Shown in pieces: positions 435 through 35,289 of a stretch of 64,000 nt of DNA. Source of the stretch: Trachythela sp. YZ-2020 (lineage: Eukaryota; Cnidaria; Anthozoa; Malacalcyonacea; Clavulariidae); contig JADLSH010000073.1 of assembly GCA_016169945.1 (NCBI GenBank), positions 620,001 through 684,000 of the forward strand, read 5' to 3'. A model generated the notes under the pieces. The model was not told the origin of the DNA and ran no database searches. It saw nothing but the letters and a program-made list of their open reading frames with translations. The number at the start of each line of letters is the position of its first letter. Position 1 is the first letter of the stretch. Both the position numbers and the translations under genes were made by a program.

Positions 435-3400
435 GTAGATTTTCATGTTTTTTTAAATTTCTGGGGTGATGCTTTTATCAGTTTTTGAGTTGCACCATTG
501 ACATGGGCAACCATCTAGGCAACGTATGCAGTAGAAATGTTTACTATTATATTCAACTGCAATTTAGCCCTGCAAAATGACTTTTCGAAATTTACTGTTC
601 ATACTTCTATTACATTTCAGTAAAGCCAAATGTGACATACAGTTTTTTCAGTCATATCACAGTAAATGAAGGTGATAATTTCACATGTGTATGTAAAGCA
701 CAAGGTGGTAACCCTCCAGCCAATGTAACTTGGTATGATAAAGATCGCGTGCAGATTGGTAATACAGGAAGGGAACAAACACTAACTATCAGTAATGTTA
801 CTGAAACCTACAGTGGAATATACACGTGTGTAGCCCAAAGCCACATCAATGCCACGAATGAAAAGTCAATCAAAGTAAAAGTAAGACTTAATTGTAAGTA
901 TATAATTGATACTCAAGTCAAGCATTAGACACTATTTCAGCTATAGGCTCTGCTTAAGGGCATTGAAACTTGGAAGTAAAAATTTTGAATAATAAATCTA
1001 TTTCCTATAACCTTGATTATGCCCGTTACTTGTTAGGGATGCACAAGATATTATATATATCCAGCCTGATAGTAATATATTTTCATCCTATATCCGTGCG
1101 AAGCGATTTGCCCGATATTATTTATATACGGTTCAGGCCTTCTTTTCAGTTGACTATTTGTCAATTTTCATTAGTAACAAAGAGGTTTTGTTTCTTCGCA
1201 GTTAAACCTAACAAGACAGTCATTACGTTTACACCAAAACCAGCTGTAGTTGGTGAATCAGTTGTCATAACGTGTGAATCTAATGGTCTTCCTGGACCAA
1301 GGTATATCATATTCCATAATGGTGCCGAGGTCAGTACTGAGAAGGTGTATGTCATATCTAAAGAGAAGCGGAGTGATGCTGGAACATATAAATGTGTTGC
1401 AAAGAATAAACTTGGAAATGATTCAGCTTCCAGATATTTACCCATCGTAGGTAAAATTAGATTTTTAGGCACATTATCTTCGCCCATTCTATATCACCGG
1501 GCAAAAACTCGTGTGGGAAGAACATGGAAAGAGAAAACATTAGTATAGTATATACATCGAGTAATGCGAGTAACATTGATGCTGCAACTTGCCACAAAAA
1601 CTGATTTCCGTGCATGTTAATTAAAAATGTTCAAATATTTTCATATAAGTGATAAGTTACCAAACATGAGACAACATTCGTAAACAGTTCTAACTAACAT
1701 GCATTGAAAATAGTTTTTGTTGTAAATTGCAGCAATTTTGTTGCTCGTATTATTTTGTCTTAAGTGACGCCTCCATGCTTCGTTTATACATGCAGATTTT
1801 GTGTTTCCATAGGAACTTACTTCATACAAGCCTATTATTTTGTCCCGAGAGACCCTATTAGTAAATTTGATAGTAAATAAGATTGAGGGCAACAGATACC
1901 ATGTTATACGGATTTGCGAAAGTCTATAATTCACTAGTTACTACACATTGCTTTCCGAAAAGCGTCTTCCTTTGCATGTGTCAGAGTTTAGTAAGAATTT
2001 TGGTTTTGCGAGGAGGAGGGAGGAATTATTCAATTATTGTGCCAAATGGTCGGCATAACGTCCGTGCATAATCATGACGGCCATATCAGCGTTTTGCTCG
2101 GAAAATGACCGGTAGCTGACTGTTATATCGCACACTGCAGGAGTTAAAATATTATCTTGTTATGAAAGTTCATACTAAATCTTTAACAATCTTTGTCATC
2201 ATTTTATCATCATTATATAATTAATCAAACAATGATTTACGAAATTTATGCGAATAAACCTCAAATTATAATTTTGATGTAGTAACACAGTGCATGTACA
2301 ACATGATTTTCGTATAAGAATTGTTTAATTACCTTTTTTCAAAAATATTTCTTCTAATATTATCATTTTATTTTCAATTTGAGGCACCAACAACACGACC
2401 ACCGACACCAACTACAAAGGCAAACATGACTACTCTCCGTACCTTAATTTTTGTGAAATGTTGAGTTTTACTCTAACCGTACAAAATAATTTTCCTTAAA
2501 AATGCACTTACTATATACATGGCTTCATTACATTTCAGCGAAGCCAAATGTGACATTCAGTTGTTCCAGTCCCATCGCAGTAAATGAAGGTGATAATGTC
2601 ACATGTGTATGTAGAGGTGAAGGTGGAAACCCTCCAGCCAATGTAACATGGTATAAAGATGGCGTCCAGATTGGTGAAACAGAAAAAGAAGACCAAACAT
2701 TGACTCTCAGTAATATTGATGGAACTGACAGTGGAACATATAAATGTGTAGCCCAAAGCCACACTCTAACAGATGAAAAATCAATTGAAGTAATAGTTAA
2801 TTGTAAGTATTATGGGGGCTTCTGTGGCGCAATCGCCAGAGCAAGCGCCTTCACATCTGTGTCGTGGGTTCGATTTTCTGCGGACTCTACGCATGTGAAA
2901 AGTATACGTCAAAGCGCTCTTCCCAAAGTCGTGGTTTTCTCCGGGCACTCCGATTTCCTCCAACAGAGAAAGTTGACTGGGTGAATTAGGATATATAGAT
3001 TAGGAAAGTAATGTCACAATTGTTGTAAAAATATATAGTGTAGGCTATAAGTACGTAATGTTGGTAAGCGAAAAACTTGATGTAATCACAATGTTAGAAG
3101 AAAATAGCAAACGATTAAGATGAACGATTGTGTCCAATGATGTTAACATTGACCGTTCTGGTAACATTGAAATATTCGTATTAAAAGTATATATAATTAT
3201 AAACATTTATAAGATCAAACTGGAAGCAGTTGTGAAAAATCCAACTATAGGCCCTCTTGTGTCCTTGTCCTTGTGCAGAGTCCGGTTGCCAAGAGCGAGC
3301 TAGCCAACTAATTCTCTGCTTCTGATTAGGTCATCCACGAATACCACGATAAACTAAAACCTTCAGCAATGTGTCCTGCATGTAATGTCAAAAGTCTAAC

Positions 3401-6400
3401 CGTGTCCAGTTATTTTATACATTTGCTCTACCGATGGTATCGAGCACTCTCGATATACAAACACATGTCTGGCCCCAAGACACTTCACGCATGTCTGGAT
3501 GCGCATGTGTACGAGTATTGTACCACGAGTATGGTGTATAAATACGAAGTCACTCGCATCTAGACTGCGTTACAACTTGACGAGCCGTTGAACGGCGAAA
3601 CATGCATGTCTGCAGATTTAACTATATGCTCCTTCACTTGTGTTGTTGAGCACTCTCATGAGGTTAATTGGTGGCTACAAGCGATAATGCAAAGCTCACT
3701 TCCCTTGTGGTCGTATGAGCACTCTGGCCCCAAGACACTTCACGCATGTCTGGATGCGCATGTGTCTGAGTATTGTACCACATGCGCTTCATGGTGAGAG
3801 CAAGAGTATGGTGTATAAATACGAAGTCACTCGCATCTAGACTGCGTTGTAACGCAGCTGCACTGACGAGTCGTTGAACGGCGAAACATACATGTTTGCA
3901 GATTTAACTATATATATTATATATATTTTGAACACTCAACACAAATGTTTTCGGCAGGTTAATTAAGTTGAGGTATAAATCCAAGCATAGTTGTGAGCTG
4001 GTTACGGAAAAAGATTGGGTTTGCACTCATTCGCGCCCAAGTAATTTGTATTCGTGGAAGTCGTTCGTGGCGTTGTTCAGGAGTTCCATTTAGATCGGAC
4101 ATTGAACTGTCGGAGAAAAACTCTAACTTTTAATTGATTGACCTTTTAAGTATGATTTCGTACATGTTTATTATATTAAGTTGAGGTTGCTATTTAAAAG
4201 AACATTGTCAAGCATCTTCGCGAAATATAATATCAAGCAGCATTCTTTTTTCATTGTCTTGTGACTAGAAAAGGGTCGGTTGAATCATAACCAAATCACT
4301 TGAGAAAAGTGTATACTTTTGTACTGGAAGTATATATTTTCTTTATCTGTCTTTTAAATTTTCATATCCATGAGGCATGACCATGTTCCTAAATGTCAGC
4401 ATGTTATTCACTGTTTAATTCATTAAGGTTAATTGGTCTGACTTGCAGGAAAATATGTACCGACGGCCAGCTGTTAAATGTACTTCGAGTTTATGTATTT
4501 TTAGCATTTTACAAATAATATTGTTTATAAATGACAGCAGCTATTTGCCTATTTTCATTAGTAACAAAGAGGTTTTGTTTCTTCACAGTTAAATCTAACG
4601 AGACTGGTGAACCAGTTGTCATACCGTGTGAATCTGATGGTCTTCCTGAAACAAGTTATATCGTATTCCATAATGGTACCGAAGTCAGTACTGAGAAGGT
4701 GTATATCATATATATAGTGAAGTGGAGTGATGCTGGAACATATAAATGTATTGCAAACAATACGCTTGGAAATGTAAACGCTGAAGGTAAGATTAGATTA
4801 TTATATATATACTATAGAAGCATTTTTTTCGCCCATTCTATATCACCGGGCAAAACCACATGTAATAGGGACATGGAAAGGGAAAACATTAGTATAGTAT
4901 ATATGGAGGCTCAGGCGAGCAGTAATATATACTCAAATATGTTTGAAGGTGGAGTAATACGAGTAACAAAATTGCTGCAACTTACCACAACAACTAATTT
5001 CCATGCATGTTAATTAAAAATGTTCACACATAAGTGAAACGTGAGACAACATTTGCAAACAGTTCTAACTAACATGCATTGAAAATAGTTTTTGTTGCAA
5101 ATTGCAGCAATTTTGTTGCTCGTATTACTTTGTCTTCGCCTCCATGCTGCGTTTAGATGCAGTTTTTGTGTCTCCATAGAAACTTACGTCATAATATATG
5201 CCTATTATTTTGTCCCAAGAGACTCAATGCCTATTATTTTTGTCCCAAGGTTTTGGGTTTAATTGAAGACAGGATAACAATACATGTTTATTGCACACTG
5301 CAGGAATTAAAACGTTATCGTGTTATGCAAGTTCATAATCTTTAACAATCTTTATCACCATTATGATAAATCAAACAATGATTTACGAAATTTATGCGAA
5401 TCAAACCTCAAATTATAATTTTGATGTAGCAACTCAGTACATGTACATGATTTTCGTCTTGTTTAATTAGCACCTTTTCAAGAATATTTCGCTCCACTGA
5501 ATGGTAAATTGGAGCCGTTATAGGTTTTCCTGAAAAATATAATGTTAAAAGCAATTATATTATCCAATTCTAAGTAATATTACGAACTTTACAAAAAATT
5601 ATACTGATTCATATAGACGTCATATCAAACCAGTTTGCGGAAATGTTGGTGTATGATTATCCTTTCGTGTGGTTCATCATTTAATACTGTCCCCTCATTT
5701 TGTAATGTTAAAAATGTTTGCCTGTTTCGCAAATTAAATATTTAAAAGTGTAGTAGAAAGTGGGGGGGGGGGGTCAATCCCATTTTCAAAGTCAACAACG
5801 TAATCCCAGTGGTCCCAATCCTGTTTTTTTTTGTGGAAACTATAGGCAAATCCCTACTCTTGTTAGGCAGGGCCGTAACGAAGCCCCCCCCCAAGATTTC
5901 AGAATATTTAGACATCTTTTCGGAAATAGAAATGTCTGAGAGAAATGGAAGAAAAAATCACGGCATTGAATCACTCAATAAAAAATGCCCATGGAAGGAA
6001 AGTGATGTTCATGAGCTTATAAAAAAATTTCCAATGCGGCCAATCGATCACTTCAAATTTTGTTGCAAAGTTTGATATTTTTTTCAAGGATGACAAAGGA
6101 ATGTGACATAAAACTCTTCATAAATGCTGCCAGCAGAGTCAGAAATTATAAACAACACATTTTCCCGTTGACAAAATTAAATCGTGCATACACTGAGGCC
6201 ATAACGTTAATTCCTGCGACTGTCACAAAATCATGGGCCGAAAACACATAACAAGCTCCAATATCTTACATAGACCATATTTGAAATATGCACTCTAAAT
6301 TGTGTATGTTACCGCGATGTTTATAACTTTCTAAATGCTATGAAACGTTTACGCAGAATGCAGGAAATACCGTTTCAGGGACCCCAAATTTGACAATTGG

Positions 6401-7732: not shown

Positions 7733-10700
7733 AAAAATAATTAATATTATTATTATAATAAATAATTATTATTATAAATAATTATAATATTATTATTATA
7801 AATCATTATTATTGTTATTATTGTTATTATTATTATTATTATAAAATATGTATCTTGTATTCTGCGTAAGAAACTTCGTAACCATAACAACACTCAGACA
7901 GACTCAAACCATGACGAATCCTTTAATCATGACAAATATATCGAAAGAAATTTCTGGGGTTATGTAAAAAACATCCTGACTAAGAAAGACGCTGTACTTC
8001 CATCCTTTGGCATGGCGGAGTGCGTAGATTACTTCAGTAAAACTTTAGCCTGCTATTCACCCGAATAAACTATTTCATATGTGGAAAAGAGCATGCACTA
8101 TACTAATTTATAAAAAAGGCAACACAAGTATTCCCTCAAATTTCCGACCTATCACACTTGAATCTATACCGCTTAAAGTATTGTCTCCGTAATGTAATGT
8201 ACTCCTTCCTCACCGCTACTGGTAATAACTTTATAGAACATAATATACAAAAAGGCTTCACAAAGTGTCTGGCACTCTTGAACATATTGCACAAATGGCC
8301 TATATTATAAACAAAGGTTACAAAGCTCGGATCAAACAACGTTCACTTGTCGTCACACCACTTGACCTCAAGAATGCTTTTGGTGAAGTTCATCACAACT
8401 TAATCCAATCTATCCTTGGTTATCATCACATTCCTAATCACATCAACAATATTATAGAAAGTCTATACACTGATTTCAAGACTTCTATTATTACTTCCGA
8501 GTTCCGTACCCCTTTTATACATATATATATATGTATGTATATGTGTATATATATATATATATGTATGTATATGTATGTGTGTGTGTGTGTGTGTATATGT
8601 ATATGTGTATATGTATGTATGTATGTTTGTATGTATGTATGTATGTATGTATGTATGTACTTATTATAGATATAGCTAATTATTCGTTTTCATTATTTGT
8701 TGCTATATGACGTGACGTTGTATATTATTAATTGTATATATATATAGAAGTAAATTTTGTTAATGATTGTATCATGCAGGACCCCACTGAAAAACACACT
8801 AGTGATGTGGGTATCCTGGATAAATATAATTATAAATAAATAAATACCTGTTGGCCGTGGAGTATTACAAGGTGACTGCCTCAGTCCTTTACTATTTAAT
8901 ATGTGTTTTAACACTTACATCCAACATATTAAAGATGAAAAGTATCGTCAGTTTGGTTTCTCTCTCCAATTCCTAAACCCCATCCACTGGTTTCAGTTTG
9001 CCGATGACGCTGCAGTTATTACTGGTCAGGAGTCTGAAAATCAACATCTCCTTAATCGATTCTCTATCTGGTGCCAATGGTCCAACATGTTTATTAGAGT
9101 TGAGAAATGTAGTACTTTCGGTATCAAGAAAGTCCTAACAAAATCTGTGCAATATCTGCCGAAGCTGTTTATCAATAAGCATGTCATACCAACCACTAAA
9201 ATCGGGGAATCATTTGAATATTTGGGACGATTCTTTGACTTTGATATGTCCAATCAAGCACATAAATCTAAACTACTCTCTCTGATAGAAGAATTGATGT
9301 CTGATATAGATCTTAAACCTCTGCATCCGAAAAATAAACTTCTTCTTTACAGTCGCTATGTTTTGTCTAAACTCTCCTGGCATTTTACCGTCGCTGCTAT
9401 ATCCAAAACTTGGGTCATTGAAAATATTGACTCTCTGGTAAACAATTACATTCGTAAATGGCTGGGAGTACCTATATCTGGAACACTTATACTAACGTCT
9501 ATCTAACCCGCAACAAGTTTGGTTTAAACATCCTACCTGCATCCGTCAAATTTATTCAGTGTCAAACAGTTCTACGCAACGCCTTAAAAACATCTCCAAA
9601 CGATTCTATAAAAGAACTCTGGAAGTCAACTAATACTCATACTAACATCCAATACGATAGCTACAACTCAACCAAGGAAGTTTTAAAGAATTTTCATTCT
9701 GTCCAAGAGGATAAACTTAGGGGCCACTTGACATGTCAAGGTTCCTTTTTTGCGTCTACTGGAACAGTAGCCGCTATATCATCGGCATTTTGATTGAGAC
9801 GAACGATAAGTGGGAAAGTTGGGTGGAACTTGATTTTTAATGAGACCATATATGGAAATGCGGTATTCATATTTGATGATCTCCGACGCCATTGATGATA
9901 GAAGAAAAGTTTTACTGCAAGCTTTATACAACACTTTACAAAAGTTTCTTTTCGAAGATTGTTAAGGTAAGATAACTATTTATTTTGAAAGATTAAAGTT
10001 CAGGGCGTTTATAGTTCAATGTACCAAGTGTATCACTGATTTTTGGAACTGTGAAAGTTGCGTATTTTCATATTTATGTTTTGAGCAAAGTCGAAGCCTT
10101 GAATTTTATGTATTTTTTTATTTATTATTAAATATGATCATTGTCAACCTTGTTTTGTTTACATAATGAATAATACCAATACCTGCTTTGAAATATTATC
10201 AATCTAAATCAGGCGAAAGGATAATGTATATCCAAGGATGGCAAAGATGCTTTATGGATTACAAAATAATGGGAGGTTTATATATGATTTGGAGTTTACA
10301 ACCTGTATATAAAACTTGATATAGTACATAAAGAAATACCACTTTAGCAAGTTTATGGATGTCAACTTATCTTGCAATCCCATGCAGCAGTGCAACACAA
10401 ATCATATACATTGCATTAACAGTCCAAGTATCCATGTTGTGAACAAAAACATGTGGAACAATGATTTTAACAGCTTTTCAAATGCTTATCCTTGATGGCT
10501 TCAATTTAAGAAAACCCATCCTTAGTTGATCCCCTGCCACAAGTTTCCAGCATATAATGAATTGCACGTCTAATGTTGTCTAAAGTCCAAAGGCAAAACT
10601 GTGGTTAGTGTGGTATAAAATATGGTCAAATCTACCAATAATTCTCCCTGGGTATGGTGTTGTTCCACTGACTGGTCTATGGCAATGCATACATCTATGG

Positions 10701-12137
10701 CAATGCATCGAGCATTGACAACATGTTTTTGTTTGTATCTTTCAGGTGTATTCAACACACTCTGTTCAGAATTACAAAGATTGCTGTGTTGTTGTGACCT
10801 GTCAGAACTTGTCGAGAACTTTAAAGCAAAGTAATATAGGTTATATAGCTCACATAGACTCTTTATTCAAGCTACTGGTACAAGTCAGTGACTACAACAC
10901 TTTTACATGTAATATTGTATTGATTAATATGGACATATTGAACTACAAGTTGCTTATGTGTGTTCATTTGAATTATAGTTTTATAATATATTTCTTTATA
11001 ATGGTTATATTATTTTTAAAACAATAACCTGATATGTACTTTGAGACATTGGTTTCTATCAGATCAAAGATCATGATTGGGGGGGGGGGAGGTAGCTACC
11101 GCCCCTGTCTGCTATGCTTATGATTCAATATGCCCTTGGGATGACTTTGTTACTAATCTGATGTGAAACATATTTAAAAAAGTATCTCTACTTCCAGTTT
11201 CAGAATGCCTGGAAGAAAAATAAATCCTATTGCTATTCAGTCTCTACCAGTAGACGCATGTACGCCATAGCGTACCTATTTTTACAAATGTTTCCAAATT
11301 CTCCCTGTCACAACTTAACGCGATATGGTCTTTATCCCAATCAAAACTACTAAAGAATATTTTTAATTTCACAATTCGCTATACATAAACAACACTCTCC
11401 CTACTCGAAAGAACCTAAATAGATGGGGTATCTCATCAAGTCCTGACTGCTCATTCTGTTTACAGCCTGAAACCCTTCTACACGTTGTTGCCGGTTGTCA
11501 ACATTACTTGGAACGATTTACATGGAGACACGATTCAGTACTGAATTTTATTGCAAAAACTTTTCAAACTATAAACGCGTGTAAACTATTTGTTGACCTC
11601 CCTGGATTTGACAGCCCCTCGATTATAACAGGAGACGAATGTCGTCCAGATTTACTTCTTTCCACCTCAAACAAACACCTCTATATTGTTGTCTCACCGT
11701 AGGATTTGAATCAAACCTCTCAAACAACGTTAAACGCAAGAAAGCAAAATACAAAGACCTGATAAGAGAACAAAATAGAAACTTTTCAACTGTGAAATTT
11801 GTAAATCTGTCAATCAGCTCACTCGGTGTGTTTGACAAAGAATGCCATACCTTCATTGGAATGTTGAATGATTTAGGACTCGACAAACAACACCAACAAT
11901 ACTGCATAAGAAGAATGATATCCATAGCCATCCGAACTTCGCATTATATTTTTTGTTGTAGAAATAAAGAATGGACTAATCCTGAACTAAAGAATATTTA
12001 GATTATCCGTATTTCCTTTAAATATTAATAATATATATATATAGCCTTATGTGATTTAAGTAGTCAATTGTAAGTTACCTCTAGAAGTGAGATTTACAAT
12101 TGTATATATCTAAGAAAAAGTTGTATCAATAAAGTTT

Positions 12138-12180
<43 letters not shown>

Positions 12181-15100
12181 GAAAGCCAAATACAAATATT
12201 TAATTGAAGAACAACGCGAGCACTCTGCATCCGTCGAATTTGTAAACTTGTCAATCAGCTCTCTTGGTGTTTTCGATAAAGAATGCTTTACCTTTATAAA
12301 AATGTTAGACAATCTAGGCTTGGATAAAAAACACCAACAATATTGCATGAAAAAGATAATGTCTATCGCAATTAGAACGACATATTATGTTTTCTGCTGT
12401 AGAAACAAGGAGTGGACCAATCCTGAACTGCTTAACTTTTAATATGTATAATCATTTGTCTATAATTCTTTTTGTGATTGTAAATAGTTCATGTAGTAAC
12501 ATATATAGTAATCTGCGATTCGTGTAGCCAATTGTAAATTACCTAATATAGTGAGATTTACAATTGTATGTAATGTTAAAAAATTTGTTTCAAAAAATAA
12601 ATAAATTATTAACTATCTGATTGTTCTGTATCATCTATACTAAAGTACTTCACATTACGTTGGTGAACTGTACAGTTTTTGGACATGCACATCTTCAATA
12701 TATTATTGTACATACAACTAATGTGAGCATGGACAAGAAAATTAGAATGGCATTGGTAATACATTCTTTCAAAGCACAATAATTTAGGGGACAAAACACA
12801 CCAGTGAGTGACAAGATTGCTCGAGTCCGAAGGGCCTAGCCTTGACAAAAAATAGTCTGGTACATTGCGGCTTAATGGGTTGACAAGAAATTTAAACATT
12901 GGGAGATATCTTAACCCGTATTAATGCGCAAAACCCTATACCCTTGAGTAATATAATTATCTGGTGTACACAGAGTAAAATACCAAAGAAACGTGCATTA
13001 TGGCGCATTGGCAGTTAATGGGTTAAGGAGGAAACCCTTACTATAGATTTACCTCTATTTGTTTTAGTTGTAAAAAGATGTGAATGTTGTCTAAGTTGTG
13101 GTGCCATTGCAGGAATAATTATTGGTGTGTTGGTGTTAGTGGTGATTATTGTTGTTGTAGTATATTGCTGTAAATCAAGAGGAAGTAAGTTATTTCAGTT
13201 TCTTAAAACGTATATGGAACTTAAGTTAATTCAATCCAGAAATTGATGACAAATACTTCAATGTGGTGATTTCTATTACTGAGGGGCTGTTTATATGGAG
13301 ATCGATCTTGATGTACAATTATTTTATAGTAGAAATGCTTTGTGTCTATATGGACAACTGGGCTAGTCCGCTTGCTCATATCTCACTTGAAACAGGCGAG
13401 ATCTCGGTTACTGGGATGAAAATTTCCTCATTTTAAACACCACTAACCGGGCTAGACCGGTTCATGCCGGGATAAAAGTACAAAGACAAATGCAGCTGCT
13501 ATAGTTACTGTCAAAAAAGACAAATCAGCTATTGTTCCGGCAAGCAGAATGAAATTTTCCTATAAATACACTAGTCAAAATTCATCTCGTTTGTCTGGCT
13601 GTCTCGCTTACTTGGCCTGCCCGGTTCCATGTAAACAGCCCCTAAGTTGTCCCATAAGTTGTTATGTAGCCTGTTGTAACTAGAAGTTTTTAAGTTACCC
13701 CTAGATGGTGGGTAACTTATAGAATATGAATTTCATGCTATATTTGCAAAAGATTTACCAGCGGCATTTTTCACTCGTTATTTATAATTATTCATACAGA
13801 CACGTTAATTGTATCTAGTATAATTAGATTTTTCAATTAAGATACCATGCTGGAGTTTATGTTTTTAATAATTTTTCATTTTCTATTTTAGAATGTGGAG
13901 TATCGTAAGTGAATGTTTTTATTTAAAAGTTTGTTGTAAAAAGTGTTTGGTAGGAAATGTATAATACCTATGTATTTTAGGATGTATAAAGAGAAGGTCA
14001 GGGGCGGATTAGCCCACCGGGCTACCGGGCGATGCCCCGGTGGGCCCCCGCTTTTCTACAATTGAGGGCCCTTGATTTCATACTGTAAAAAGACAGACAA
14101 AATCTCAAGACAGCCATCACACCTTTGTAACAAAATACCAAAATACAACATCGTAGTTAACTAGCATATTTATTTTGTTATATAGTTATTCTTCACTACC
14201 ATGCAAAATGAACACTAAAATGACCTGGTGTATGCATGTCAGATCTTCCCCAGAACTCAGGAAATGCCATTTCCGAGACTGCGGATTTCAAAATTTTCCG
14301 AGGGAACATCCCCCCGGACCCCCTAGAGTTTCTCTAGCCCCCTAACCAATGTAATCGTCAGCCGCCACTGCTACATTGTAAAAGTCTTAACAAAATATTA
14401 CTGTTTTAATGAATAGATATAGAAGAAGCAGACTATCGGGTTTATATCGCAGTCAAACTTTTTAATTCATAGTAATCGCGTTTCTGTGGACTTGTTTCGA
14501 TGACGTCACAAAGGGGGCCCTTATGCGTTAAAGCCCGATCCCACTGATGGTGCTAATCCGCCCCTGGAGAAGGTATAATCCAACTTCAGCATGTCTGTGT
14601 GCATTTAATATTGGGTTTTTTGATAATTTTACACAGCAACAACAATCAGGCTTTTAGCTGCCCAATGATACCTTTTTGTATCATTATAAGGGAAAATGAG
14701 CAAGTATGAATCGAATAAAAACTGTCGGTCGAAATCACATTTTTCCACCGTTGGGAATTGGGTGCAAAACTATTGAAAACAAATCCCATTTGGATCTCAA
14801 ATTCATGAATTTTCATTTACTGAAAAAGGCATAACATATGAATAAAATTAAATTTATTGTTTAGCAAGACACATTGTTGATTAATTGCTTTCTCTTTTGT
14901 TATGTACTGCTTAAATTATGCACAGAGGTGGAAAAATGTAGTTTCTACCGGCAATTTTTAACCGGCTTGTATTTTGTCATTTCTGCTTAGAACGATGCAA
15001 TGTACAAAATACATTTTTCTACCTCCTCCTTATTTTTCCGCATGGTTAAAACAGTACATATTAACAAAAGAGAAAGCAATTAATCACTAGTGTGTATATT

Positions 15101-24381: not shown

Positions 24382-27335
24382 TTTGTTTTTTTTGTTTGTT
24401 TTTTTTTAATTTATTCAAATGCATGACCTATTTACAGGTATTGCTAGAATATAAAGAAAGATATAAAGAATAAGTAAATATAAAGGAAAGAGTCTATGGT
24501 ACAATATATAGTTAAATACATATAAGTTAGTAAATAGAAAGTTGTTTTTTTGGGGGGTTTTTTTTGTTCATTTTTTTTAGTATATCCCAATATAATATAT
24601 AATATATAATCTTTTAATTATCTCCGGGCTTCCAAGGATTTGACGCTTTCTTCTCTCTCAATTGAACAGAGGAAGAGATAGTTTGAAAATAAGTTTACAA
24701 GAACTGTATCGTTTGAAGACATCGTATGTTCTAGTAGTTTTTGCTTAGTTTCTGTTGTGGTTTTGGAATTAAAAATGTTTTTAAGTATGTTGTTTGAATT
24801 GTTTCGTAAGTTTTCGTATTTCTGGCAGATAAAGGCAAAATGAAATTCGTTTTCCACTTCACCAGATTTACAAAGTTTGCAGATACGTTGTTCACGAGGA
24901 ACATTTTCGTATCTTCCACGTTCGATTCGTGGTTTATGATTACTTACTCTATATTTAGAAAATGTTCTCCTTATTGTTGGGTTTTTAATGAGGAATAGGT
25001 ATTCCTCCATTTTGTATTCGTTTTTGAACGTACAAAAGAAGGATAGTTTAGATGAGGTAGTCACTTTATGTCGCCAGAATTCGACATATTTTCGTTCATT
25101 CTATTTACGATGGTTTTGGTTTCATAGTTTATGATATCATTTTCAATATTTGATGTATTGTCGTAAAACGATTTTAGCATGGTTATGGCGTTAGTATAGT
25201 AAGATTCTTTACCATTATTATATAATTGTTTGGACATTAGGAAAGATTGTTTTACAATTGAGTTATCGTCTAGTTTAAGGATATGTTTCATGTAATTGAT
25301 TATATTCTTTTTAATTGAAATCAGAAGTGGATATTTTCCAAGTTCACTTCTGCAAGCTATATTGCTTGCTTTTCTGTTTACACCCAAATATAGCTTGCAG
25401 AATCTTAAAAGAACTTTTTCTGTTTCGGAATTATCCCATTTGTTTAAATAATTTTTTTCGTATGCTCCCCAGACTTCTGAGTTATACAGTAGAATGGGGG
25501 AAATAATTGCGTCAAAAATTTTGGTAGCTGTTTTTGGTGACAGTTTATGAAAATCTAACTTAGATACACTATAAAGAGCATGCAAAGCTTTTTCGCTAAG
25601 TTGTTGTTGTGAAAGTTTAAATTTGCTATTTGGTACAAGTTTGAGACCAAGATAGGTATATTCTTTCACGATATCTATATTTTTATTTCCAATATAGAAA
25701 TGAAGGTTTGGTAATTTTGAATTGTGTTTTTTGAAAAATCATAATTTTCGTTTTTTTGATATTGACTTCCGTTAGCCAGTTATTGCACCATTCGTGGAGT
25801 TGGTTTAGACAATTTTGTAGACCTGATTTTGATCGTGAGAGGATGATGAGATCATCTGCATATAGGAGACTGTTAATAGTAGTTCCGTTTAGTAATACAA
25901 ATGGATCTGATTGTGTTTGTTCAAAAAGTGTTGGAAGTTCGTTTATATAGATATTAAATAATAAAGGGCTTAAAACGTATCCTTGACGAACACCCTTTTT
26001 GTATGAAAAAAATGGTGTTCAGTCTTCCGATAGTTTTATTGCACATTTTGTGTTTGAGTAGAGGTCTTGGATTAAGTCGTAGAAATGCCCCCCTATTTTA
26101 TTTTTGATTAGTTTGTAGAATAGGCCTTGATGCCAGACGGAATCAAAAGCTTTTCTAAAATCGACAAAACATGCATAAATCTTTTCATTTTCACTCTGTT
26201 TAACGTATTTATCATGCAGAGTTTTCAGCGTGAAAATATGGTCTGCCGTTCTATTTCCAGGCATAAATCCAATCTGAGTAGGGTGAATTAGTTTATTTTC
26301 ATTTGCAAAATTCATTAATCTATTATTCAAAATTGAGCAAAATAGTTTGCCCATACAGCTTGAAACGCATATACCTCGATAATTGTTGGGGTCAAGGGAG
26401 TTTCCTGATTTATGGATCGGGGTTATTAGGCCCTCGGTCCACATTTCAGGAAACTTTCCTGAAGTTAAAATGTTGTTGAAAACTTTTAAAAAACCTTTCG
26501 AAAGAATTTCAATACTAGATTTTATCATTTCGTTTCTAATTTTGTCGCTATAAACAGCTTTCTTTGATTTTAACTTTTTGGCTGCTTTTAGTAGTTCAGC
26601 TTCAGTGATGGTTCCATCAAGTTTAGTAAATTTGTCTTTAATTTTTTCATAATTTTTTAGGCATTCACGGATTTCGCCTTGTTCCTTATTTAATTTATGT
26701 TCTGAATGTAACGATTCAAAATGATTTAGCCATTCACTTGGCTGTGGTATTTTCTTAGTTGCATTAAAGTCAAGATCATCACCGCTATTTCTAAGATTTT
26801 TCAAAAATAGCAGTGGATCTTCGCTAGCTTTTTCAAGTTCTTGGATTTTATTACAATGGAAATTGTTCTTTTTCATTTCTAAAGTATGTTTATAATCTTT
26901 CAGAGCTGTGTGGTATGTGTTTCTGATTTCATTGTTATTTTGGTCCCTATGTTTCTGATTTGCAAGTTTTCTTAACTGGTGTCTTTTGAACCTGCATTCT
27001 TTATCAAACCATTTTTTGTTTGCAACATTATTAATCTTACGTCTATATTTTTTCTTTTTAATTTTTAGAGATTTTTTAGATGCTAGGTGAATAATATTTT
27101 GAAAGTCATTAACACATTTGTTAATGCTTTCTCTGTCAGATGTAAAATTATTATCAAGAAATGTGTTCAATTGTCTTTGCGATTCAACTGATTTTAATTC
27201 TTTCTTAAAATTTTCGTTTGAATCATCAGACCAAATATATTGACGTGGTAATTTTGATAATGGGGGTTGTGAGGGGATATTATTATTTGTTTTATATGTT
27301 TTATGTAAATAAAAATTTTTGAAAAACTGGGGAAC
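24381..27335 (-). mobile_element. 5'-truncated LINE inserted in the minisatellite
   Basis: On the minus strand it runs from about 27335 (junction with satellite sequence, which resumes at 27340) to a poly(A) tail seen as T runs at 24384-24409. AATAAA on the minus strand is at 24415-24410. The endonuclease region is missing (5' truncation). The last 80 bp plus poly(A) are also present at about 23765-23850, carried along by the 609-bp duplication. Confidence 0.8.
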
Positions 27336-27344
27336 AGTGGCCAA
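24618..27344 (-). pseudogene. Non-LTR reverse transcriptase (LINE), nearly intact
   Basis: The order on the minus strand is a basic pre-RT linker, then ITPIHKSGNSLDPNNYRGI, QIGFMPGNRTADHIF, motif A FVDFRKAFDSVW, motif B KKGVRQGYVLSPLLFN, motif C LLYADDLIILS, NIKKTKIMIF and EYTYLGLKL. A C-terminal ICKLCKSGE..NEFHFAFIC zinc knuckle closes it. Only three lesions break it: TGA at 26021-26019 (after LSED, probably from CGA), one extra base in the A6 run at 25727-25732, and one lost T near 25080. Restoring frame at each is apparent from continuous family motifs. The first few residues at 27344 come from the satellite. It is of jockey/CR1-like type; the clade is uncertain. Confidence 0.88.
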
Positions 27345-27686
27345 AAATAAAAAGTGTTGGCCTTAACCTTCTGTTGAAAAAATGTTAAGGGTTCAATCTT
27401 AGCTTTACTTTTTGGTTATTTTTGGCCACTTTTTGAATTTTTTCCCTACAGGTTTAGTAAAGGGCTACCGCTAGTTGACCTGGTGTTACTGCAGGAGGAA
27501 ACCGGAGAACCTTGGGAAGCCGTGTTGGGTAGAGTCAAACTGGAAAAACAACTGGTTGAATAGCACTAATTATTGGGGCTTCGGTAACGGATCAAGTCTT
27601 CCGAGTGATTGAAATTGTGGGTTTGACAAGGCAGGCCAGAGGGGAGGAGGGGCAGAGAGGGCAAAATACCCAGGGGCCGTGCTGTT
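27336..27686. repeat. Third minisatellite piece and spacer
   Basis: The block aaagggctaccgctagttga through ctggtgttactgcaggagga matches 23541-23596 in the same orientation. It shows that the LINE split or neighboured this repeat. ggaggaaaccggagaacc at 27497 resembles the reverse of the SINE core domain. Confidence 0.6.
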
Positions 27687-29159: not shown

Positions 29160-29962
29160 ATGTTATGAGCCTGTGCTTACGAAGATAAATACCTCAGCCG
29201 AATTGAGAAATTTTGTAGAAGAGCTGTCAGATTGGTCAGTATATGCCGCTAAATATGTACCAATTCATGACATGCAGGGATTGGTAATTAATGAAAAATG
29301 TCATTTCATTAATAATGAAAACCATCCACTCTACAATCTGCTTACACACTGAGAAAGACAAGACATCTTCGAGATCGTGCATGGTCACGACTTCAGTTTT
29401 GCCACGTGTTCGCACAGAACGTTTAATTAAACAGTAAATTTTAAACAGTTTTGGTATATATAGACACATACATAAAATCTAACAAATCTGAGATACAAAT
29501 ATATAAAACTAAAGTCTAAATTAAATTACCCATTTTATAAACTTTCAACTGAAAACTGTAGGAATATCATAACAGTATTTAGCAACTAAAGACATTATTG
29601 TTTTGTCTTGTATATATATAGCCATAATATATATATAAGAAGATCTTGAGAATTATAAATGAGCAGAATGAACTATTTATTCTACATAGATTATTTATAA
29701 AATTAACTCTAAGATTGGTGAACTTATTGTTTTTGCATAACATTAAAAAATGTTTCATTTAGGGATTTTAGATCCCAATGTTTAATTGTACTAGATTAAT
29801 TGTTACATATTTACATGTTTTATATATTTTTTATATCGAAAAGTGTTGTAAAATCGCAAGTCTGTTGCTGAGTATCTTATATAACAAAGACTTTAAATGA
29901 ATGAATGAATGAACGAATGAATGAACGAACGAATGAATGAATGAACGAATGAATGAATGAGT
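29160..29962 (+). pseudogene. Second LINE remnant with (AATG)n tail (copy 1)
   Basis: The frames give YLSRIEKFCRRAVRL and ENHPLYNLL followed by RQDIFEIVHG with stops, a degraded RT C-terminus. An AT-rich UTR and an AATG/AACG array (29896-29962) suggest a LINE with a tetranucleotide tail. Confidence 0.6.
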
Positions 29963-31577: not shown

Positions 31578-31873
31578 GGGGCTTCGGTGGCGAAGTGGTT
31601 AGCGCACTTGCCTTTCACCTCTAAGGCCGCGGGTTCAAGTCTCAGTGAGAACTTTCTCAATGCGACTCGAACCCAGTCCTCAAGTGAAAAGAGTAAAAGT
31701 CAACGCTCTGCCGAAAGTCGTGGGTTTTCTCCGGGTACTCCGGTTTCCTCCCACAGGGAAAGTTGACAGGGTGGGTTAGGTAAAAGGGCCCACAGTAATT
31801 GGCATATGCTGTTGTGGTGACCCTGCCCTAGTTGGCGAAGCTAAATAATAAAAAAAAAAAAAAAAAAAAAAAA
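31578..31873 (+). mobile_element. SINE, full length, poly(A) tail (copy 1)
   Basis: A tRNA-like head (ggtggcgaagtggttagcgc as A box, gcgggttcaagtc as B box), the core gtgggttttctccgggtact, the 3' part ttggcgaagctaaataat, and about 24 A. The flanks atcaa suggest a short TSD. Confidence 0.88.
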
Positions 31874-34489: not shown

Positions 34490-35289
34490 TGATGTTATGA
34501 GCCTGTGCTTACGAAGATAAATACCTCAGCCGAATTGAAATTTTGTAGAAGAGCTGTCAGATTGTGAGATTGGTCAGTATGTGCCGCTAAATATGTACCA
34601 ATTCATGACAGGGATTGGTAATTAATGAAAAAATGTCATTGCATTAATAATGAAAACCATCCACTCTACAATCTGCTTACACACTGAGAAAGACAAGACA
34701 TCTTCGAGATCGTGCATGGTCACGACTTCATTTTGCCACATGTTCGTACAGAATGTTTAGACAGTAAATTTTAAACAGTTTTGGTATATATAGATACATA
34801 CATAAAATCTAACAAATCTGAGATACAAATATATAAAACTAAAGTCTAAATTAAATTACCCATTTTATAAACTTTCAACTGAAAACTGTAAGAATATCAT
34901 AACAGTATTTAGCAACTAAAGACATTGTTGTTTTGTCTTGTATATAGCCATAATATATATATAAGAAGATCTTGAGAATTATAAATGAACAGAATGAACT
35001 ATTTATTCTACATAAATTATTTATAAAATTAACTGGTGAACTTATTGTTTTTGCATAACATTAAAAAATGTTTCATTTAGGGATTTTAGTTCACAATGTT
35101 TAATTGTACTAGATCAAATTGTTATATATTTACATGTTTTATATATTTTTTATATCGAAAAGTGTTGTAATTAAAATCGCAAGTCTGTTGTTGAGTATCT
35201 TATATATATAACAAAGACTTTAAATGAATGAATGAATGAACGAATGAATGAACGAACGAATGAATGAATGAACGAATGAATGAATGAGT
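34490..35289 (+). pseudogene. Second LINE remnant with (AATG)n tail (copy 2)
   Basis: The duplicate of 29160-29962, with the array at 35224-35289. Confidence 0.6.

Follow-up and report, generated by a model that had tools for sequence, protein, structure and literature searches.

The window analysed here, a 64,000-nt stretch of the genome of Trachythela sp. YZ-2020 (GCA_016169945.1, contig JADLSH010000073.1, positions 620,001 to 684,000, forward strand), carries in an intron a 5'-truncated retrozyme with a type I hammerhead ribozyme, which we read as fused to the 3' tail of a Penelope-like element (PLE). In our preferred explanation, to which we give a probability of about 0.7, PLE machinery copies the retrozyme RNA and sometimes switches templates. 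The PLE tail is the more informative part of this insertion. The intron and the parts of its insertion described below lie on the + strand, and positions without a locus or contig name are window coordinates.

Results

The PLE piece, a 3' tail fragment of the type PLE-W, spans 3383–3465 and is 97.6% identical to positions 2934–3016 of locus L169; the first-pass annotation had let the retrozyme begin at 3440, within what is PLE sequence. A 141-nt query matched 46 places in the genome, including the window itself, and the majority of these matches span 3383–3465. The fragment contains the PLE-tail hairpin GCUC-UACC-GAU-GGUA-UC-GAGC-ACUCU (3425–3450), identical in L169, and breaks off in C/A-rich sequence 15 nt past the hairpin motif, about 20 nt before the usual PLE-W end. 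All 11 other PLE-W copies read keep the tail as far as CTATTTGATAT, with its last 20 nt, so that ordinary priming would hardly produce a PLE piece that lacks its own 3' end, like the one in the window.

Behind this break lies the retrozyme. Unit 1 (3468–3610) begins at unit position 115 and has internal deletions, and unit 2 (3611–3896) is complete with 286 nt, a GC content of 46.9% and 96.0% identity (267/278 aligned positions) to the family majority. Unit 2 carries two hairpins of the PLE type GCUC..GAGC-ACUCU, hairpin A at 3628–3656 and a second copy of the motif, hairpin B, at 3694–3725. The array ends with TGCAGATTTAACTATATA and an AT tract (3897–3928), by eye the standard family end, although our script did not score it as such. 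The earlier description as a dimeric 286-nt tandem is thus right as to the spacing but not as to the copy number, since the array comprises roughly 1.5 units: 3468–3627 recurs as 3723–3913, and 3628–3722 is single. No open reading frame (ORF) longer than 79 amino acids crosses the array. The octamer TATAAATA at 3814–3821 is retained in the family majority sequence and may possibly be a promoter element. With divergences of 2.4% from L169 for the PLE-W piece and 4.0% from the family for unit 2, both pieces could be of the same age. Attempts to extend the repeat yielded only weak candidates, which were rejected: leftwards of unit 1, 8 of 150 shuffles scored equally and the stretch is explained by the PLE tail, and rightwards of unit 2 beyond 3913, 14 of 150 did so.

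In the searched assembly (578 Mb, 396 contigs) the 34-nt ribozyme core of the family has 3,410 exact copies, against none for its reversed control, and a 446-nt array query gave at least 102 matches, from the 40 of 979 first candidates that were scored. Related tandem copies elsewhere, on which the first-pass annotation had made its claim depend, hence exist in abundance. Detailed analyses refer to 36 stretches (L133–L168) selected for holding the best array matches. They contain dispersed tandem arrays with units of 275–286 nt, the longest array piece measuring 31.7 unit lengths. From 141 complete monomers (spacing 270–290, others left out) we obtained a modal unit of 281 nt, and the monomers have a median identity to the majority sequence of 99.6% (minimum 95.4%). 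Judged from sequence, the window copy belongs to a young and abundant retrozyme family, of which it is a degenerate representative near the old end. Its membership is well supported, as a type I hammerhead with three helices, tandem non-coding units in the range of about 150–450 bp and a GC content below 50% (47.3% in the family majority sequence) all occur here. A regular expression for the hammerhead, which tests core and spacing while pairing was judged by eye, matched 209 times in L133–L168. Of these matches 195 are of the family core type, with C3 intact in 194 and cleavage sites GUC in 176, GUA in 18 and GUU in one. Stem III of the family is the palindrome ACAUGCAUGU, which would permit paired hammerheads; action as dimers is known for amphibian retrozymes (PMC7229834).

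The array ends are markedly asymmetric. We delimited 48 arrays in the window and the 36 stretches. Forty-three 3' ends are visible, and the script placed 38 of them at one point, 17–19 nt past the cleavage site at TTTGACTATATA; by eye the window and L161+ also end there, and three ends deviate (L143 twice, once at TTTGACT without TA, and L146). The 5' ends, by contrast, are scattered throughout the unit; the 44 counted include L134, a cut between two stretches of one array, and L135, a restart within an array. Twelve of the 44 fall at unit positions 72–88, where 2.7 were expected, directly before hairpin B, with the caveat that at position 74 the match may extend into a TA tract. It is as if copying halts once hairpin B is read through; alternatively, a promoter may set the 5' end at this hotspot. 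(TA)4 or longer follows 34 of the 43 visible 3' ends. It also lies closely upstream of 28 of the 44 5' ends, compared with 1.0% of random 53-nt windows from 20 control stretches. Arrays that stop at one point and begin anywhere in the unit, with TA tracts on either side, are what target-primed copying with an internal start would be expected to leave.

The motif GCTC-N-GAGCACTCT occurs in PLE tails and in each half of the retrozyme unit. A unit has two copies of the 9-mer GAGCACTCT, against 0.001 expected. Among 13 hairpin types, picked by eye from 42 strings plus one more, 32 of 39 cells show pairing between the nucleotides adjoining GCUC and those that precede a 2-nt bulge. When the 3' arms were dealt among the types, the mean was 23.4, and 32 was never reached in 20,000 trials. 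Retrozymes and PLEs have in common a covarying hairpin, the order of hammerhead and then hairpin, and (TA)n sites. They are also neighbours: 16 of the 36 loci have PLE-type hairpins beside the retrozyme arrays, 22 hairpins in all over 43.8 kb, as against one in 60 kb of control sequence (20 stretches at fixed coordinates).

Moreover, both elements are directly joined. We searched with two patterns that require a retrozyme to begin no more than 65 nt after a PLE tail on the same strand, and only this order and orientation was counted. They identified 7 + 12 = 19 places, and the reversed controls none. By eye, 11 of the 19 joins have no TA tract between the partners (3/7 and 8/12, the window being among the 12). 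At L153 the PLE tail is interrupted at GTAGACC and the retrozyme follows.

Coding pieces of the PLE partner were found at L169–L172, where they accompany tails other than the retrozyme unit. In a fold search with a model of P0020, which is 81% identical to the L169 ORF, the best matches were telomerase, and the predicted fold of the L169/L172 partner is accordingly that of a telomerase-like reverse transcriptase. No GIY-YIG fold was among these matches, whose alignments spanned model residues 1–483, the GIY-YIG part not having been run alone. A pattern of YxG, R, H, E and N, which we take to be the GIY-YIG endonuclease motif, is invariant in 34 relatives. The partner also has hammerheads in terminal repeats, partly as tandem copies: on the minus strand of L172 the coding pieces are flanked by two sets of hammerhead and hairpin, at 121/191 and 2515/2585, and in L169 a hammerhead-like core precedes the hairpin.

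Besides the family ribozyme, 14 minimal hammerheads, 11 of them of one type, occur in 11 of the 36 retrozyme stretches (L135, L136, L141, L147, L152, L153, L156, L160, L162, L164 and L167), some of them by eye inside long inverted repeats of the PLE tail. Minimal hammerheads of PLEs are described as usually having no helix III nucleotides (PMC7761336).

In the window itself, a complete type I hammerhead occupies 3858–3901, with predicted cleavage at 3896|3897, as had been proposed for the second copy. Stem I is formed by CTGCA (3858–3862) and TGCAG (3897–3901), with an inner loop and a possible outer helix of 3903–3908 with 3846–3852 (by eye). The core CTGACGA (3863–3869), stem II (3870–3882) and GAAA (3883–3886) follow, then a stem III of 3 bp (3886–3888 with 3893–3895, loop 3889–3892), and H17 is U at 3896. 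A structural descriptor of core and three stems matched only here on both strands of the 64 kb. On 150 dinucleotide-shuffled windows it matched twice in total. About 1 in 75 windows could therefore show such a three-stem core by chance, and it is the genome copies that decide. The first copy (3577–3615) is degenerate in the way originally noted: C3 is U (T3577), the 3' strand of stem I adjoining the core is missing, and the GUC site is kept at 3608–3610. Unit 2 departs from the family by a GUU site, a stem II weakened to a G-U pair and an insertion in stem I, and has lost the perfect stem III palindrome. Given these changes and a partner copy without C3 and a stem I strand, strong activity of the window ribozyme appears doubtful. 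The folding minimum of 3840–3910 has three stems with shifted pairs and a stability close to that of shuffles (z −0.6).

In the covariance-model check advised by the first-pass annotation, Rfam reported no match in the window at its gathering score and, below it, Hammerhead_3 only, with 16.5 bits. This silence is weak evidence against a hammerhead, as Rfam (E ≤ 1) lists nothing at the type I motif at 10481 of the viral contig L001 either. Viral-contig scans for the retrozyme found no match, nor did a distant search of phage records, and viral-contig hammerheads found with the generic type I pattern served as controls only. In L001 (8300, 10481, 13418) the descriptor gave two type I motifs and Rfam one weak type II motif (28 bits, below gathering); in another viral contig, L071, at least five type I pattern matches lie within about 3 kb (10410–13228).

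The host intron (2803–4588, splice sites by eye) has a GTAAGT donor and the acceptor TTCTTCACAG and separates Ig exons a2 and b2, members of a tandemly duplicated exon pair; the element sits in it in sense orientation, in agreement with the earlier annotation. The paralogous intron a1–b1 (894–1201) contains no alignable counterpart, and as the intron sequences do not align, no empty site is demonstrable. A dispersed repeat, possibly SINE-like, has one copy in the same intron (2892–2990) and another, 83% identical, at 31681–31780. Elsewhere in the window, repeats at 29896–29960 and 35223–35287 with identical ORFs, spaced by about 5,327 bp, point to a recent tandem duplication, and an ankyrin ORF has, as the only one of its 18 hits with a species name, a protein of the octocoral Dendronephthya gigantea (85% identity), which makes an octocoral host probable.

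Discussion

Mobilization by PLEs is the best reading of array ends, target, hairpin and joins, short of proof. The retrozyme arrays would be transcribed and their hammerheads would cut the transcripts to 281-nt RNAs, which probably circularize. As this RNA carries the hairpin of PLE tails, we propose that the PLE protein, a telomerase-like reverse transcriptase with probably a GIY-YIG nuclease, binds it there. The protein would open an AT-rich (TA)n site and start copying at ACUAUAUA, immediately 5' of hairpin A. Copying beyond one full round would produce tandem arrays that share a single 3' end while their 5' ends vary. Occasionally, the enzyme may leave the retrozyme template for PLE RNA, at a point past the PLE hairpin, and the window could be such a product. 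Extended to metazoan retrozymes in general, this would make them parasites of PLEs: the PLE protein would recognize the shared hairpin and reverse-transcribe the circular RNA in a rolling manner, starting at an internal UAUAUA site, and jumps to PLE RNA near its AC-rich initiation site would at times give rise to chimeras. We lean towards this wider view by a narrow balance.

Several observations weigh against PLE mobilization. The retrozyme is known here from DNA alone. Three of the 13 hairpin types (RZ-A, L166 and L197) pair at only one of three inner cells, the assumption of a 2-nt bulge was made once the data had been inspected, and a plain MAFFT alignment of ten types gave only the outer GCUC/GAGC stem and no covariation. 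PLE-W copies end after the hairpin and retrozymes before it, and PLE-A, by eye, does both; the copying start points are hence not identical. Pfam and NCBIfam recognize neither the PLE reverse transcriptase nor its GIY-YIG part. The hammerhead fold is also not the energetic optimum: with its stems enforced in longer pieces, the window reaches −16.5 kcal/mol compared with −17.9 for the best fold, and the family sequence −14.0 compared with −18.9. As a circle, the window unit folds in an ordinary way (z −1.0; family z −2.9). Finally, the PLE tail is clearly cut short in only about five joins, namely the window, C303 (= L153), C200 and the C96 pair; the last are two of the eight TA-less joins from the second pattern and may be a single event copied. 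By eye, the remaining TA-less joins retain most of the PLE tail and are without little more than the TA run.

The joins also bear on the most serious rival, in which retrozymes and PLEs use separate machineries that both prefer (TA)n, a LINE moves the retrozyme and joins arise from later deletions. (TA)n does flank both elements alike, and a shared liking for TA tracts would by itself account for the nearness to PLE tails. Eight of the 19 joins hold a TA tract (in one TATAT only), as independent insertions into one (TA)n would give, and several of the other 11 retain nearly the whole PLE tail. The reversed-pattern controls address chance, not independence, and the window join itself could result from two separate insertions together with a deletion. 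Moreover, RVT_1 ORFs judged LINE-like lie in the window at 8844–9503 and 26022–27362. Separate machineries, however, leave unexplained why a covarying hairpin shared with PLEs adjoins the array end, and do not explain the window, C303 and C200 joins with their short PLE tails and no TA between the partners. We hence consider this explanation unlikely, if still to be taken seriously.

A domesticated ribozyme that cuts the host pre-mRNA and controls its processing would fit the sense orientation in the intron and the complete core, and hammerheads are described in introns of two human genes (PMC6155905). Yet the window copy is one among thousands, and its altered cleavage site, stem I and stem II stand next to a degenerate partner copy. 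We regard such a role as very improbable and host-gene regulation as the least likely part of the whole picture; the cutting of the host pre-mRNA suggested in the first-pass annotation is doubtful.

Least of all do we expect a satellite DNA spread through unequal crossing-over with the ribozyme as passenger: the longest array seen (C287:467204–477978, L133/L134), regularly spaced at 280 nt, contains 17 GTC units and every one of the 18 GTA-site units found, and this confinement suggests local amplification, but dozens of dispersed arrays with one common 3' end and scattered 5' truncation already disfavour this explanation.

Returning to mobilization by PLEs, the family resembles the metazoan non-LTR retrozymes of Cervera and de la Pena (2020, PMC7229834) in its type I hammerhead, in non-coding tandem units (170–400 nt there), in a GC content below 50%, in forms from dimers to long multimers, in thousands of copies and in coexistence with PLEs. 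It differs from them, as described in the available text of that paper, in an apparently octocoral host, two PLE-type hairpins per unit, arrays that stop at a constant 3' end beside (TA)n, and joins with PLE tails. The circular RNA that is a feature of metazoan retrozymes is for the present family a prediction from its sequence. In the same text PLEs are named only as strong candidate movers of animal retrozymes, an argument from shared hammerheads, tandem copies and coexistence. Our literature search found no report of a shared hairpin or of PLE–retrozyme fusions, two papers on hammerheads in PLEs, and supplements, being outside its reach. With hammerhead PLEs such as PAc of Anolis (PMC11167929) the family shares a tail hammerhead, a telomerase-like reverse transcriptase in its proposed partner, AT-rich targets and the proposed internal initiation, and the window fusion point in a C/A-rich stretch is reminiscent of the AC-rich loop at which the Anolis element initiates. 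The retrozyme differs from these elements in lacking an ORF and in a hammerhead more complete than the minimal PLE variants, with a 3-bp helix III and a tetraloop.

The arrangement would be analogous to SINE/LINE pairs with a common 3' tail, in which the non-autonomous element bears the tail structure of its autonomous partner; in contrast to these, the retrozyme template is probably circular and excised by a ribozyme. PLE mobilization, if true, would explain how a ribozyme-made circle is converted to a tandem array. In a single genome, retrozymes and PLEs now show a common structured tag and a common target site, together with direct chimeras and a defined point at which copying would start, and the question of whether PLEs move retrozymes hence becomes one of binding and copying assays with a named hairpin and start site.
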